DNA of 48,009 bases, taken from NCBI RefSeq assembly GCF_001887355.1, contig NZ_MPIN01000030.1, forward strand, positions 3,989 through 51,997. Direction: 5' to 3'. Of the stretch, positions 30,261 through 37,152 are shown piece after piece (position 1 is the stretch's first letter; each line of letters starts with the position of its first letter). The DNA is from Cystobacter ferrugineus. Its GTDB lineage: Bacteria > Myxococcota > Myxococcia > Myxococcales > Myxococcaceae. Under the pieces are notes generated by a model. The model was given only the letters and a program-made list of their open reading frames with translations, made no database searches and was not told the DNA's origin. A program made the translations under genes and the position numbers.

Positions 30261-32084
30261 TCAGTAGACGTCGCGCAGGTAGCGCTGCTGCTCGCGCAGG
30301 GTTTCGAGATGGGCCCGGGCTTCCTCGCGGCTCTTGCCGCCATGGGCCACGTAGATGTCGATCAACGCCTCATGGACGTCCGGGGCCATGCGCTGGGCCT
30401 CGCCGCAGACGTAGATCGAAGCGCCGCCTTCCAGCCAGGCATGGACGTCGCGCCCCTTCTCGCGCAGGCGGTGCTGGACGTAGACCTTCTGGCCCTGATC
30501 CCGCGAGAACGCCACGTCCAGGCGGTGCAGCACGCCCTTCTTCACCGCCTCCTGCCACTCCACCTGGTAGAGGAACTGGCTGCGGAAGTGCTGCTCGCCG
30601 AAGAAGAGCCAGTTGCGGCCGCTCGCTCCGGTCTCGGCCCGCTCCTGCACGAAGGCGCGGAACGGCGCCACGCCCGTGCCCGGGCCAATCATCAGGATGT
30701 CCCGCGAGGGATCCGCCGGCAGGCGGAAGCGCTCGTTGGACTCGATGAACACCTCCACCAGATCCTTCTCCGCCGTGCGCGTCGAGAGATAGGAGGAGGC
30801 GGCGCCGAAGTGCCGGGTGCCGAAGGCCTCGTAGTCCACCCGGGCCACCGTCAGGTGCACCTCGTCCCCCACCCGCTTCTGGCTGGAGGCGATGGAGTAG
30901 AGCCGCGGCGTCAGGCGGCGCAGCGCGCCCACCAGATCCTTCGCGCTCCACTCCGCGGGATGGGACCGGAGCAGATCGATCACCTGATGGCTGTCGAGCA
31001 ACTTCCGCAGGCCCGCGGCGTTCTCGGGGGCGATCAGCCGCTCGAGCTCCTTGTCTCCGGAGCGCGAGGCATGGCTCGTCAGGAAGGGCCGGCTCAGGCG
31101 GGTGATCTCCAGCCCCTCGGACAACCAGCGGTGCAGTGGCAGCACGCGGCCGTCACGCGACACCTCGGTGGCGCCGTCGAGCTTCAGCGTGGAGAGCACC
31201 GCGTCCACCAGCTCGGGGGGATTGCGCGGCACCACCCCGAGCGCGTCTCCTGGCTCGTAGCGCAGGCCCGAGCCCTCGAGCGACAGCTCCACGTGGCGCA
31301 CGTCCTTGAGGGCGTCGCGGCCGGTGATGCGCTGGTTGGCCAGCACCTGGGCGGGATAGGGATTCTCCCGGCTGAAGGTGGGCGCCACGGACGCGGTGGG
31401 CAGTTGCGTGACGGTGGCGACGGGAGAACCCAGCTCCGTGCGCGCGCGCTCCAGGGCCTGTCCCAGCCACGGCTCGGCCACCGGCTCGAAGTCCACGTCG
31501 CAGTCGGCGCGCGAGAACAGCCGCGCGGCGCCCAACTGCGCGAAGCGCTCGTCGAGCACGCGGCCGACCTCGCAGAACTTGGGGTAGCTCGAGTCCCCGA
31601 GCGACAGCACCGAGAACTGGAGCTGGTTGAGCGCCGGGGCGCGCTTGCTCAGCACGAACTCGAAGAAGCCGCGCGCGTCATCCGGGGGATCGCCATCCCC
31701 CTGGGTGCTGATGACCACGTACAACACCCGCTCGTTCTTCAGCTCGCGCGTGGGGTACTCCCCGGCGCGGAAGACACGCACGGCGACCCCGGCGGACTCC
31801 AGGCGCTGCTTGAGGCGCTCGGCCAGGAGCCGGCTGTTGCCCGTCTGGGTGCCGTAGACCACCGTCACCGGCGTCTGGGGCGTGGCCTGGGGCACGGCCG
31901 TCGGCTGGAACTGGGGCGCGGATACCGGCAGCGACCGGGCGGCGAGCCCGGCGAAGTACCCGCTCAACCAGTTGAGCGACGAGGCATCGAGCCCCTCGAC
32001 GAGGCGCTGGAGCTGCGCGCCCTTGTCCGCGCCCAGTGGCGTGGCCAGGACGGCGATGGAGGCTGCATTCACGGAGGCACTCAA
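30261..32084 (-). CDS. cysJ: Assimilatory sulfite reductase flavoprotein subunit, TTG start
   Basis: Transfers electrons from NADPH via FAD and FMN to CysI. An N-terminal segment of ~75 residues precedes the flavodoxin domain ([35 protein letters not shown]). The FAD domain ([20 protein letters not shown]) and NADPH domain ([40 protein letters not shown]) follow, ending in the conserved YLRDVY. The start is assigned to TTG at 32084: it overlaps the cysN stop as TTGA and has AGGAG 8 bases upstream; no ATG is available before the flavodoxin domain in a coding context. 607 residues, normal for the family. Confidence 0.94.
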
Positions 32085-33739
32085 GGCGTCTTCTCCTGCG
32101 CGTCGAGGACGCGCTTGACCTGCGTGTCCACGTCCTCCGAGGGCTCCAACTCGAGCCAGGGGACGCCGGCGCCACGAAGCTGTTCCCTCAAGACCAGACG
32201 CGCCTGGGGAACCGGGGTGTAGAGGATGGCGAGCAGGCCCGCCTCCGCCAGCGCGAGGGCGTTCTCCGCGTCCCCGCGCACGGTGGCGGCGTGCCGGCCC
32301 AGATCGAAGAGGGCACGCTCCAGACGGAGCGCGGCGTCCCGCACCTCGGGCGTGCCCGTGAGCAGCAGCACCGCTCCGGACTGGCCCAGACGCTCGCGAC
32401 GCTCGCTGGCGGTGACGAGGGAGCGCGCTTCCCCGGCCCCCTGCCCGCCCGCGCCGCCGAGGATCATCCCCGCGGCGACCGTGTCGTTGGTGAGCGGATC
32501 CACGACGATGAAGGCCCCGGTGCGGCGGTTGTCCCGGTAGGGATCGCACACCACCGGCCGCTTGCAGACGAGCCGCACCTTGGCGATGTCATTGAGCCCG
32601 AGCGTCGGAGCGGGCTGCTCGGACAGGTCCTCCAGCTCCTTGCGCCAGAGCACCTGCTCGATGTGGGCGGGGACGTACTTGGAGGTGTGCTTCACGAGGT
32701 AGCGGCGCGAGGTGTCCAGGCGCTCCTCGCCGAACCAGACCAGCATGGCCTCCATGTCCTGGAGCACCCGCGGTGGCTGCTCGGCGTGGGCGATCTGGTC
32801 TCCCCGGCTGATGTCCACCTCGTCCGTCAGGCGCAGCGTCACCGAGGCGGGCGCGCTGGCCTCCTCCAGGCGGCCGTCGAAGGTGTCGATGGACGCGATG
32901 TGCGTGCGCCGCTTCGAGGGATACACGACGACCTCGTCCCCCAGGCGCACCTTGCCGGAGACGATCTGCCCGGCGAAGCCGCGGTAGTCCAGGTCCGGCC
33001 GCAGCACGTACTGCACGGGGAAGCGGAAGGCCGCGTCCTCCTGCCGGCGCTCGTGCGGCAGCGTCTCCAGCCACCCGAGCAGCGTCTCGCCATCGTGCCA
33101 GGGGGTGCGGGCGCTCGGCTGGGTGATGTTGTCACCCGTGCGCGCGCTGATGGGGAAGAAGCGCACCTGCTCGAAGCCGAGCGTGCGGGCGAAGGCCTCG
33201 AACTCCGTGGACAGGCGCTCGTACACCGCCTGATCGAAGTCCATCAGGTCCATCTTGTTGATGGCCACCGCCAGGTAGGGAATGCCCAGCAGCGAGGCGA
33301 TGTACGCGTGCCGCCGCGTCTGCGGGAGGATGCCCAGGCGCGCGTCCACCAGGATGACGGCCGCGTCGGCCGTGGAGGCCCCGGTGGCCATGTTGCGCGT
33401 GTACTGGAGGTGTCCCGGCGTGTCCGCGACGATCACCTTGCGCCGCTTCGTGGAGAAGTAGCGATAGGCCACATCGATGGTGATGCCCTGCTCGCGCTCG
33501 GCGCGCAGGCCGTCGGTGAAGAGCGAGAAGTCGATCTCCCCACCCGCGCTCGCGCGCTTCACCGCCGCCACCTGATCCTCGAAGAGCCCGTTGCACTCGT
33601 AGAGCAGCCGGCCAATGAGCGTGGACTTGCCGTCGTCCACCGAGCCCACCACCGCCAGGCGCAACAATTCCTTCTCGGCGTGCTCGGCGAGGAAGCCCTG
33701 GACGTCCGTCCTACCTTGAACCTGCGTCTCGGCGGTCAT
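32081..33739 (-). CDS. cysN: Sulfate adenylyltransferase GTPase subunit with decayed APS-kinase domain
   Basis: With CysD makes adenosine 5'-phosphosulfate (APS) from ATP and sulfate, driven by GTP hydrolysis. The GTPase domain has Walker A GSVDDGKST (about 32-40), DTPGH and NKMD; two beta-barrel domains follow to ~430. Beyond them lies a 109-residue tail (444-552) that still reads like an APS kinase (RRERLGQSGAVLLLTG, LERALFDLGRHAATVRGD, AEAGLLAILYTPVPQARL). The P-loop position reads GTPEVRDAA instead of GLSGAGKST, and the domain is about 70 residues short. Kinase activity is therefore not expected. ATG follows the cysD stop by one base. Confidence 0.95.
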   Translation of the reverse strand: MTAETQVQGRTDVQGFLAEHAEKELLRLAVVGSVDDGKSTLIGRLLYECNGLFEDQVAAVKRASAGGEIDFSLFTDGLRAEREQGITIDVAYRYFSTKRRKVIVADTPGHLQYTRNMATGASTADAAVILVDARLGILPQTRRHAYIASLLGIPYLAVAINKMDLMDFDQAVYERLSTEFEAFARTLGFEQVRFFPISARTGDNITQPSARTPWHDGETLLGWLETLPHERRQEDAAFRFPVQYVLRPDLDYRGFAGQIVSGKVRLGDEVVVYPSKRRTHIASIDTFDGRLEEASAPASVTLRLTDEVDISRGDQIAHAEQPPRVLQDMEAMLVWFGEERLDTSRRYLVKHTSKYVPAHIEQVLWRKELEDLSEQPAPTLGLNDIAKVRLVCKRPVVCDPYRDNRRTGAFIVVDPLTNDTVAAGMILGGAGGQGAGEARSLVTASERRERLGQSGAVLLLTGTPEVRDAALRLERALFDLGRHAATVRGDAENALALAEAGLLAILYTPVPQARLVLREQLRGAGVPWLELEPSEDVDTQVKRVLDAQEKTP

Positions 33740-33740
33740 C

Positions 33741-34658
33741 TTAGAAATACCCCTCGCGCTTCTTGAGCTCCATCGAGCCTTCCTCGTCGTGATCGATGAG
33801 CCGGCCCTGCCGCTCGGACACGCGGGACTCCACCATCTCGGTGATGATGTCCTCGACGGACGCCGCCGAGGACTCCACGGCGCCGCTGAGCGGATAGCAG
33901 CCCAGGGTGCGGAAGCGCACCCGCTTGAGCACGGGCTTCTCGCCCGGCCGCAGCCGCATGCGCTCGTCATCGACCATGATCCACTGGCCGTTGCGGCTCA
34001 CCACCGGGCGCTCGGCGGCGAAGTACAGCGGCACCACGGGAATGCGCTCCTTGAGGATGTAGTGCCACACGTCCAGCTCGGTCCAGTTGGAGAGCGGGAA
34101 GACGCGCATGCTCTCACCCGCGTCGATGCGGCCGTTGTAGAGGTTCCACAGCTCGGGCCGCTGCTTGCGCGGCTCCCACTGCCCGTGCCGGTCACGGAAG
34201 GAATACACGCGCTCCTTGGCCCGGGACTTCTCCTCGTCGCGGCGGGCACCACCGAAGGCCGCGTCGAAGCCATGCAGCGCGAGCGCCTCGAGCAGCGACT
34301 GCGTCTTCATGGCGTGCGTGTACTTCTGGCTGCCATGGTCGAAGGGGTTGATGCCCTCGGCGAGCGCCTTCTTGTTCTGGTGCACCAGGAGGTTCAGCCC
34401 GTGGCGCGCCGTGAACTCGTCCCGGAACCTGTACATCTCCCGGAACTTCCACGTGGTGTCCACATGGAGCAGGGGAAACGGCAGGGGCGCCGGATGGAAC
34501 GCCTTGCGCGCCAGGTGCAGCAGCACCTGCGAGTCCTTGCCAATGCTGTAGAGCATCACCGGGCGGGCGAACTCCGCCGCCGTCTCCCGGAGGATGTGGA
34601 TGCTCTCCGCCTCGAGTACCGCGAGGTGCGAGTGCCTCGCCGCCAACGTCTCACTCAT
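33741..34658 (-). CDS. cysD: Sulfate adenylyltransferase subunit 2
   Basis: Catalytic ATP-sulfurylase subunit, partner of CysN. PP-loop ATP pyrophosphatase motif [18 protein letters not shown] begins at about residue 37. The middle holds [20 protein letters not shown], and [20 protein letters not shown] is the usual family block. The 305 residues match the family. The ATG lies within the last 8 bases of cobA, indicating translational coupling; it is one base from cysN downstream. Confidence 0.97.
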
Positions 34659-35451
34659 GTCCCGCCTCGACCTTGAGAAATTGCTCCGGCCCGGCCACGC
34701 CCGGCCGCGTCCTGGCCAGCGTGGGCAGTTGGGCCCGGAGGGAAACGACCTCGCCCACCACCAGCAGGGCGGGAGAACCCACGGCCTCCTCCCGGGCCCG
34801 CGCGGCGATGGACGCCAGCGGCGCCTCGATGACGCGCTGGTGCGCCCAGGTACCCGCCTCCACGATCGCCGCCGGGGTGGACGGAGCGCGGCCCGCGGCG
34901 ATGAGCGCGAGCGTCACCTCCTCCAGCCGGCGGCCCGCCATGAAGAGCACCAGCGTCTCCGCGCCCGCCAGGTGCGCCCAGTCCGGCGCCTGGCCCGTGC
35001 GGTGCGCGGTGGCGAACGTCACCGAGCCCGACACGCCCCGGTGGGTGACGGGAATCGCCGCCGCCGCCGGTGCCGCCAGGCCACTGGAGACTCCCGGGAC
35101 GACCTCATAGGCGATGCCCGCCGCCTCCAGCGCGAGCGCCTCCTCCCCACCCCGGCCGAACACGAAGGGGTCTCCCCCCTTGAGCCGCACCACCGTCCGG
35201 CCCAGCCGGGCCTGGGCGATGAGCAGCGTGTGGATCTCCTCCTGCGCCACCGACTCGCCCCCGCCCTCCTTGCCCACGAACACCAGCCGCGCGTGGGGCC
35301 GGGTATGCGTGAGGACCTCCGGGTGGATGAGGCGGTCGTACACCACCGTGTCCGCGCTCGCGAGCAGCCGGGCCGCGCGCAGCGTGAGCAGGCCGGGATC
35401 TCCCGGGCCCGCCCCCACCAGGTACACGATGCCCTCGACGTGTTGACTCAT
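34651..35451 (-). CDS. cobA: Uroporphyrinogen-III C-methyltransferase (SUMT)
   Basis: Adds two methyl groups to uroporphyrinogen III to give precorrin-2, the first step toward siroheme, which CysI needs. SAM-binding start [19 protein letters not shown], then [20 protein letters not shown] and [20 protein letters not shown], all family hallmarks; [10 protein letters not shown] and ETLVLFMAG complete the fold. About 266 residues, the normal single-domain size. The ATG overlaps the stop of the upstream gene by four bases (ATGA). It corresponds to the C-terminal half of CysG in enterobacteria. Confidence 0.95.
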
Positions 35452-36089
35452 GTCGTCTCTCCAAAAGTCTCGAGCGCGGCGCGAACCCGGGCCCAGGCTT
35501 CCCGGCTCCGTCCGCGCATCAACAACTCTCCCGCCTCGCCCTCCACCAGGTGCTTGAGCAGCCGCATCCGCGCGGGCCCCTGTGGCAGCCGCCTGCGCAG
35601 CCACCCCGTCAGCCGCGCGAGCCGCACGTGCCCGGGCTGCACCTGATCCAGGAACCGCTTGCGCAGCAGCCGCGCCAGCGCGGGCGCCTGGCCCGAGGTG
35701 GACACCGCCACGACGATGGGACCGCGCCGGCCCACCGATGGCAGCGTGAAGTCACACAGCTCCGGCACGTCCGCCGTGTTGAGCCACACGCCGCTCGCAC
35801 GGGCCTCCGCCGCCACCGCCTCGCTCACCCGCGAGTCATCCGTGGCCACGAACACCAGTTCCTGCCCCCGGGTGTCGCCGGGCCGCCAGACGCGCTCGAG
35901 CAACTCCAGACGGCCCGCGGCCGCGAGCTGGCGGATGCCGCTGCCCACCACCGGAGCCACCACGCGCAACCGGGCTCCCGCCTCCACGAGCTGCCGGCTC
36001 CGCTCCTCGGCGATGGTGCCGGCTCCGACCAGAAGCACCCGCCGGCCCTCCAGACGAAGGCAGACGGGAAAGTCCACGGGCGTGCTCAT
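35448..36089 (-). CDS. Precorrin-2 dehydrogenase / siroheme synthase N-terminal-type protein
   Basis: Converts precorrin-2 to sirohydrochlorin with NAD and may insert iron, finishing siroheme. Residues 1-110 form a Rossmann domain (FPVCLRLEGRRVLLVGAGTI with the nucleotide-binding GAG, then ELVFVATDDSRVSEAVAAEA). GVWLNTADVPELCDFTLPSV is the family's conserved catalytic block. The C-terminal ~70 residues (PALARLLRKRFLDQV onward) are the dimerisation part. The start at MSTPVDFPV is chosen over a 29-residue longer frame because it begins just before the Rossmann fold. It follows cysH by 35 bases and overlaps cobA. Confidence 0.92.
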   Translation of the reverse strand: MSTPVDFPVCLRLEGRRVLLVGAGTIAEERSRQLVEAGARLRVVAPVVGSGIRQLAAAGRLELLERVWRPGDTRGQELVFVATDDSRVSEAVAAEARASGVWLNTADVPELCDFTLPSVGRRGPIVVAVSTSGQAPALARLLRKRFLDQVQPGHVRLARLTGWLRRRLPQGPARMRLLKHLVEGEAGELLMRGRSREAWARVRAALETFGETT

Positions 36090-36124
36090 GAGACCATCAC
36101 TCGGAGCTGGATTCTGGAGTTCAT

Positions 36125-36862
36125 TCAGCGCTTCACGTGCAGACCGCACTCGCGGTTGTCGGGCGACTCCCACCACCAGCGGCCCGCACGCTCGTCCTCA
36201 TACGGCTTCACCGCGCGCGTACAGGGCGCGCAGCCGATGGAAGGGTAGCCGCGATCATGCAACGCGTTGTAGGGCACCCCATGGGCCTTGATGTACGCCC
36301 ACACTTCCCGGGACGTCCACCGAGCGAGCGGGTTCACCTTGAGCAGGCCATGCGTCACGTCCGCCTCGATCGCCTGGACCTCCGTGCGCGTGACGGACTG
36401 CTCGCGCCGCAACCCCGTCACCCACGCCTCCCGTCCCGCCAACGCGCGCTTGAGCGGCTCCACCTTGCGGATGCCGCAACACTCCTTGCGCTCCTCGATG
36501 CTCTGCTTGAACGAGAAGTACCCCTTGGTGGACTCCAGCGCCTCCACCCGCGCGCGCTCGGGGAAGAACGTCTCGATCTCCACGCCATAGCGGCGGCGCA
36601 CCACGTCCATCACCTCGTAGGTCTCCGGCGGCAGCCGTCCCGTATCCAGCGAGAACAGGCGCACGCTCGGTGCGTGGGCACGCGCCAGATCGATGAGGAC
36701 CATGTCCTCCGCGCCAAAGCTCGAGGCAATGGCCGCGCGAGCACCGAACCGCCGCTCCACCCACGCGAGTACCCGCTCGGCGGGGGCGTCGAGCAACTCC
36801 TCGGAGGTGGCGCGCAGTTCCTCGGGCGAGAACGCGGGCGATGACAAGGAAGACGCGGACAT
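36125..36862 (-). CDS. cysH: Fe-S type adenylylsulfate (APS/PAPS) reductase
   Basis: Reduces activated sulfate to sulfite using thioredoxin. The PP-loop-like N-terminal region has SSFGAEDMVLIDLARAHAP and LFSLDTGRLPPETYEVMD. Cys128-Cys129 (KECCGIRKVEPLKRAL) and Cys211/Cys214 (GCAPCTRAV) are the four [4Fe-4S] ligands that mark APS reductases, as opposed to cluster-free PAPS reductases. The catalytic Cys239 is in ECGLH near the C-terminus. 245 residues. It is the first gene of the operon, preceded by a leader whose intrinsic terminator ends about 15 bases before the ATG. Confidence 0.96.
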   Translation of the reverse strand: MSASSLSSPAFSPEELRATSEELLDAPAERVLAWVERRFGARAAIASSFGAEDMVLIDLARAHAPSVRLFSLDTGRLPPETYEVMDVVRRRYGVEIETFFPERARVEALESTKGYFSFKQSIEERKECCGIRKVEPLKRALAGREAWVTGLRREQSVTRTEVQAIEADVTHGLLKVNPLARWTSREVWAYIKAHGVPYNALHDRGYPSIGCAPCTRAVKPYEDERAGRWWWESPDNRECGLHVKR

Positions 36863-36877
36863 GGCAGACCCCGACGG

Positions 36878-36916
36878 AAAAAAGAACGGCCCGCCCCTCG
36901 AGCGAGGCCGGGCCGT
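36878..36916 (-). terminator. Intrinsic terminator in the cysH leader (attenuator candidate)
   Basis: On the minus strand an 8-bp perfect stem (ACGGCCCG / CGGGCCGT) is extended by an inner CCUC/GAGG stem and is followed by TTCTTTTTT. It stands ~100 bases after the predicted transcription start and ~15 bases before the cysH start codon, so it would stop transcription before the operon. Its 5' arm could instead pair with the GGGGGCCG stretch upstream (near 36929-36938), giving an antiterminated form. Confidence 0.75.
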
Positions 36917-37025
36917 ACGTGTCGCCGGACAGCGGCCCCCGTGGACCGATGCCCTCGGCGAGATTCCTCACCCGCGCCCCTGGTCCTCGGCGGCCAGCGA
37001 AGCGCGCTACAGCGTGAGAGAGCGG

Positions 37026-37054
37026 TAATTACCGCCCGGCCCTTTCTCCGTCAA
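37026..37054 (-). promoter_or_regulatory. Sigma70-like promoter of the cys operon
   Basis: On the minus strand TTGACG, 17 bases, then TAATTA. Spacing is optimal and the -35 matches five of six consensus bases. Predicted start of transcription is near 37018, giving a leader of about 155 bases before cysH. Confidence 0.6.
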
Positions 37055-37152
37055 GGTGGACGAAACGCCAATATGACGGACAGGCGCCTCCTGCCTTCCT
37101 GGAGGGGAGGCGCCCAGGTGCGCCTGGGCGTGAAATCAGGCACAAAGAACAG

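Follow-up and report, generated by a model that had tools for sequence, protein, structure and literature searches.

The cysH operon of the DNA analysed here (the window, 48,009 nucleotides) is preceded by a leader that ends in an intrinsic terminator, and the question is what this leader senses, if it still senses anything. The initial annotation had called it attenuator-like and possibly a new riboswitch. Having compared it with the leaders of related genomes, we consider it probable, at about 0.75, that it is a decayed copy of a ribosome-mediated cysteine attenuator, one of a family that controls sulfur-assimilation genes. The features of the locus are as follows.

37066..37080, minus strand: TCCGTCATATTGGCG, palindrome-like putative regulator site upstream of the −35 box (regex match across genera)
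37026..37054, minus strand: predicted promoter TTGACG-17-TAATTA (sequence; conserved in three species; nothing from a generic scan)
37022..37035, minus strand: GCGGTAATTACCGC, palindrome over the cysH −10 box, possible operator (recurrence of the core CGGTAATTACCG)
36876..37035, minus strand: stretch matching covariance model R2 (28.2 bits, E 1.9e-4 in 104 kb)
37007..37015, minus strand: ACG CTG TAG, apparent wreck of a leader-peptide start (alignment of three species)
36970..36980, minus strand: GGGGCGCGGGT, predicted antiterminator 5' arm (region 2), pairing with the terminator 5' arm GCCCGGCCTC
36933..36940, minus strand: GGGGGCCG, weaker competitor (fragment at −18.2 kcal/mol with the terminator 5' arm)
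36878..36916, minus strand: intrinsic terminator and U tract (terminator scan; 35-36 of 36 bases identical among three species)
36125..36862, minus strand: cysH, APS reductase type (PF01507; TIGR02055 270.6 bits, cut-off 235.3)
32081..36176, minus strand: siroheme synthase N-terminal-domain protein, uroporphyrinogen-III C-methyltransferase, cysD and cysN, the next same-strand genes after cysH

The promoter comprises a −35 box TTGACG (37054-37049), a spacer of 17 bases and a −10 box TAATTA (37031-37026). A generic sigma-70 scan did not report it, because that scan requires a −10 ending in T and this one ends in A. The call rests on comparison between species: 22-23 of the 23 bases of spacer and −10 are identical across three members of the genus, and in other genera TTGAC followed by a −10-like hexamer was seen by eye at a comparable place. 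Promoter, leader and terminator all lie on the minus strand from 37054 down to 36878, ahead of the cysH start at 36862, and a MOSC-domain gene lies upstream of cysH in divergent orientation. The order promoter, leader and intrinsic terminator before cysH, as first described, is borne out by the sequence, the species comparison and the terminator scan.

The terminator hairpin (36916-36886, followed by TTCTTTTTT) has a predicted energy of −23.7 kcal/mol, equal in the window and two sister species, and a terminator scan of 2 kb returned 2 overlapping matches against 0.5 expected in shuffles. The segment GGGGGCCG had been proposed to compete with the 5' arm of this hairpin. It does pair with that arm, but the best-folding competitor is the arm at 36980-36970, further upstream, and in the alignment GGGGGCCG has one G fewer in both sister species. 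The GGGGCGCGGGT/GCCCGGCCTC antiterminator folds at −43.8 kcal/mol (z −2.65; −2.53 and −2.21 in the sister species); the fold of the whole leader is not more stable than that of shuffles (z 0.11). Folding of the nascent window leader gave an antiterminator probability of 0.05 with no bases masked and of 0.79 once the first 36 were masked, with values of 0.02-0.44 in between. The antiterminator is thus improbable in the unmasked leader, which should therefore mostly terminate when no ribosome is present. In the folding model, the window itself has the terminator and competing antiterminator of a cysteine attenuator.

No Cys-rich frame lies between the promoter and the terminator of the window (Cys score 0), as had been observed at first reading; in place of a translated leader frame with Cys codons the sequence reads ACG CTG TAG. 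A frame containing 3 Cys codons spans the promoter and sequence upstream of it. The earlier remark that no known riboswitch signature is evident also agrees with an Rfam search, in which the riboswitch and T-box families gave 0 matches at gathering thresholds in the window and 9 related loci. Relaxed thresholds gave three chance-level matches (E 0.46-4.6).

We then turn to the relatives. A cysH match at E<=1e-40 was present in 51 of 96 family genomes, and 50 of the 51 loci were examined (G043 was left out; the sequence upstream of cysH in L008 amounts to 30 bases only). A Cys-rich peptide frame precedes the terminator at 32 of the 50 loci, and at 30 of these two units stand in tandem. The tandem leaders are those of genera g19 (27/27), g5 (2/2) and g20 (1/1), and single ones were found at 2 of the 5 readable g3 loci. 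The frames of L013, for example, are MTHSHTPTAAPFASRCCPSCTCCRQPDLGC and then ...CCLCRACPECPPAGGCRASRSV, each ending in a stop. The leader of L012 (1692-1837, minus strand) holds 12 consecutive Cys codons, mostly as a TGC repeat, and slippage may have raised the length of this trinucleotide run. In L006 and L012, the 420-base stretch preceding cysH exactly matches that of Archangium lansinium (L032) and an Archangium sp. MAG (L033); Archangium is a myxobacterium.

In g19, 34 of 37 scored copies carry 5 or more Cys within 14 codons, a level reached by 3 of 2040 dinucleotide shuffles and by 0.6% of 4988 random positions in the analysed loci (the score omits the second terminator of L007). The 27 leader-2 frames of g19 all stop at TAG and share one codon position that encodes Cys throughout, spelled TGT in 20 and TGC in 7. 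In the intact relatives the first short frame, with at least 4 Cys codons, begins about 10 bases after the −10 box and would therefore be nearly or fully leaderless; for leader 2 no obvious Shine-Dalgarno was seen by eye. The relatives thus appear to have short frames that are rich in codons for the product of the pathway and end before a terminator. By eye, the cysH leaders of L098, L029, L024, L028 (g7) and L026 (g8) are possibly half decayed, with few Cys codons (FCPFCPSPWTSAKGCPG in L098), and some such g7/g8 leaders have no ATG. Among 63 loci of other groups, Cys-rich frames up to 700 bases before cysH reached 4-5 Cys in 14 codons at 13 loci and never more, and were taken as chance. None of the 16 genomes of genus g6 in the family yielded a cysH match at E<=1e-40; perhaps they draw on different sulfur sources or use another enzyme.

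The Cys run of g19 is followed by CCGCC, by GGCGGGTGCCGAGC or a close variant, by the stop codon and then by GCTCGYGCGGCCCGCC, the end of which is the terminator 5' arm. When the RNA of the 53 Cys-leader copies was cut at the end of that arm, a long antiterminator was predicted (−30 to −47 kcal/mol). In 43 of the 53, at most 10 of 200 shuffles surpassed the stability of the antiterminator using this arm; the exceptions were seven g19 copies (six T1, one T2), L192 and both g3 copies, for which 12 and 46 of the 200 shuffles folded at least as well. In a MAFFT alignment unfitted to structure (A1; the T2 copy of L019 left out) covariation was not above shuffles, the antiterminator arms were nearly invariant, 9 of 13 terminator pairs were fully invariant in 32 copies, and RNAalifold returned the terminator and short helices but not the antiterminator. 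In an alignment fitted to covariance model R1 (A3), which takes in the cysK, cysI and transporter copies described below, 12 of 22 antiterminator pairs show changes in both partners; shuffles gave 5.0 +/- 1.5, and not one of the 500 reached 12. Equilibrium folding at different ribosome positions favored the terminator nearly everywhere, also where the antiterminator arm was left free; some copies showed dips around −72 to −60. Since the terminator wins at equilibrium in most copies, switching would have to be kinetic.

A mechanism for the intact leaders can be proposed from sequence, in which stalling, termination and a response to cysteine would be linked as follows. With ample Cys-tRNA the ribosome would proceed to the stop codon and cover the GGCGGGTGCCGAGC arm, and the terminator would form. 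When Cys is short, the ribosome would stall at the Cys codons and cover only the preceding CCGCC segment. The GGCGGGTGCCGAGC arm would then be left free to pair with the terminator 5' arm, and transcription would enter the operon. Two such units would work in tandem in 30 of the 32 intact cysH leaders. In the lineage of the window the start codon and the Cys codons are missing, and a terminator and a rewritten antiterminator arm remain.

In trp/his-type attenuators a leader peptide is followed by alternative 1:2, 2:3 (antiterminator) and 3:4 (terminator) pairings. The present leaders resemble them in both respects and differ in that Cys would be sensed, the units are in tandem and the start is near-leaderless. 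Leader peptides are discussed in PMC2965389. In mycobacteria, Cys-rich leaderless small ORFs are described upstream of cysteine-related genes (excerpts of Shell 2015, PMC4633059). Later experimental work on this system is cited as showing an action on translation (passages of PMC9031893 and PMC13236596), and the study of Canestrari 2020 is referred to here as cited in PMC9031893, PMC13236596 and PMC9094748. As these passages describe them, the mycobacterial small ORFs likewise have a short near-leaderless Cys-codon frame thought to sense cysteine by the progress of the ribosome; they act on translation, whereas here, comparing by description, an intrinsic terminator and an antiterminator follow the Cys frame, mostly in tandem. 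The mycobacterial type is described there as having no intrinsic terminator, whereas the Cys frames of the relatives precede one, and the present leaders belong to a different bacterial group. For Actinobacteria, candidate cys leader peptides with Cys-codon runs before cys operons and cbs have been proposed (Seliverstov 2005, PMC1262725), and in the excerpted text those authors report no conserved terminator hairpins. The Cys-codon runs before cys operons are shared; conserved terminators set the present leaders apart, with 9 of 13 terminator pairs invariant in 32 copies. In the literature found, cysteine-directed attenuation is described for Actinobacteria only, and our search, which missed most subscription papers, found no myxobacterial counterpart. 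A classical, terminator-coupled and doubled version elsewhere would provide an independent example, open to direct test, of ribosome stalling as a cysteine sensor.

Covariance models R1 and R2 were built from the Cys-attenuator copies of the relatives. R1 found the element before cysK in 7 g19 genomes, with one frame each (e.g. MSLPLPTTGAQCCCCRVACACCCLAGPEHWESA and a stop; Pfam PALP), and before cysI-cysH in G047 (Pfam NIR_SIR). In another family of the order (G155) the element lies before cysI-cysH and before a Sulf_transp gene, and R2 found it before cysH in a third family (G114, G117). Outside the family cysH loci it was thus present at cysK in 7 genomes, cysI-cysH in 2, cysH in 2 and a sulfur-transport gene in 1. 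At E<=0.003, R2 matched 39 of 195 phylum genomes, and its matches include leaders without a Cys run (G032, G006). By eye, the R1 matches in G011, G095 and G086 were judged chance or terminator-only, and the R2 match in G101 terminator-only. Our own terminator filter kept T1 in 11 of 27 g19 loci, and R2 reported T1 in 17 of the 27, two of them R2 training sequences. A cysI protein match at E<=1e-100 was found in only 2 of 96 family genomes; in G049 a short, weaker frame with 3 Cys codons, MVRVDALAYPAAAQRCRCACRQGAAPEFAAS and a stop, lies before cysI (L116:465-560, plus strand). It was left out of the counts, and G049 had no R1 match at E<=0.01.

The leader of the window resembles this element. 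When R2 was run over the 48 kb window the cysH leader ranked first at 28.2 bits, a score of which the terminator supplies part, and the next best match had 13.3 bits; whole-genome searches with R1 and R2 did not report the leader. Where the frame would start, the three species that keep the terminator read ATG CTG TGT (L004), CTG CTG TAG (L003) and ACG CTG TAG (window), so that the peptide frame is broken in 2 of the 3. In L004 there is still a short frame, which has a single Cys codon and extends into the antiterminator arm, where it ends; by eye no start codon and frame is common to all three. The terminator and the rewritten antiterminator, altered relative to that of the intact relatives, are kept in 3 of 4 genus species; the fourth (L011) has lost both leader and terminator. 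Pairwise identity between the species is 96-97% over the 92 bases from the antiterminator arm to the terminator, compared with 88% for the 4-fold sites of cysH (one-sided p 0.015-0.032; the pairs are not independent, and this test compares three close species with segment bounds that we set). The 50 bases of the 5' leader diverge at the 4-fold rate in the three species. Searching the genome of the window with a Cys-codon DNA pattern was uninformative (126 matches against 84 in the reversed control).

These findings uphold the term attenuator-like, given the terminator, the competing antiterminator and the likeness to the attenuator family. The CysH tree places the genus of the window in a clade with g20 and g3 (support 100/99), some of which keep Cys leaders, although several deeper forks lack resolution. 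Because of this placement and the intact leaders in other families, loss would be simpler than independent gains, which suggests decay rather than a separate origin. Since the leader of the window is untranslated and its terminator kept, it should mostly terminate, and control of cysH in this lineage probably rests on the promoter.

Two palindromes at the promoter are candidates for such control. The pattern TCCGNN[AT]TANN[AG]G, which was chosen after inspection of the sequences, occurs upstream of cysH at 17 of 18 loci of g1, g3, g4, g7 and g8, the 18th having no sequence there. It occurs at none of the 30 cysH loci with tandem Cys leaders (g5, g19, g20) and at neither of the 2 in g13 and g15. 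The pattern TCCGYNATATYRGCG was found once per genome in 4/4 members of the genus (reversed control, 0); 3 of the 4 species have the core CGGTAATTACCG at a single place in the genome. The promoter palindrome may have a regulatory role, and a putative DNA-binding regulator has perhaps taken over cysH control in the lineage of the window. Of the 12 Cys-leader loci outside family cysH, L173, one of the 7 cysK loci whose Cys leader is intact, carries the palindrome, and the remaining 11 lack it. Two g3 cysH loci also hold both the site and a Cys leader; together with L173 this speaks against a swap of regulators and indicates that the two modes of control are not exclusive.

Other explanations of the leader have to be weighed. 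It could still be a working attenuator, with a non-ATG frame, an RNA-binding protein or a tRNA as sensor. The conservation of both RNA halves above 4-fold sites in three species, their folding better than most shuffles and the short one-Cys frame of L004 ending in the antiterminator arm all speak for this, but the lack of a start codon and frame common to the three species (by eye), the absence of Rfam matches and a fourth genus member without leader and terminator make it rather unlikely. Conversely, that complete loss in L011, the divergence of the 5' leader at the 4-fold rate and the palindrome at 17 of 18 loci of g1, g3, g4, g7 and g8 would suit a passive leftover, a hairpin that only lowers basal transcription without switching while regulation lies at the promoter. 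A leftover of this kind is hard to reconcile with an antiterminator-to-terminator segment more conserved than 4-fold sites, and we regard it as improbable.

The small-molecule riboswitch first suggested, for APS, O-acetylserine, SAM or siroheme, draws on the GC-rich leader with a terminator and a competing segment before a sulfur operon. Cys-rich peptide frames occupy this very place in relatives, Rfam gave no match and the whole leader has a fold z of 0.11. The sensor of the relatives looks like a translated run of Cys codons, of which the window leader looks like a decayed copy, and a riboswitch is very improbable.

Returning to the decayed cysteine attenuator, our leaning for the myxobacterial order as a whole, held with somewhat less confidence, is that a cysteine regulon (the cysH operon, cysK, cysI-cysH and a sulfur transporter) would be under near-leaderless poly-Cys leaders with intrinsic terminators, in tandem before cysH. 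The genus of the window would represent the state after replacement by a putative DNA-binding regulator reading TCCGNNATANNGG, with the two g3 loci holding both. Leaders that are intact, mixed and decayed can be lined up among the relatives, and a change of regulator could be traced along this series. The cysK genes of the genus have no Cys leader (4/4). At 3 of the 4 (L178-L181), CTGATATGGCGGATA lies just upstream and by eye resembles part of the cysH promoter palindrome. At the cysK locus L173, with its intact poly-Cys leader, TCCGTTATAACGG lies beside the −35 box, about 90 bases before the element.
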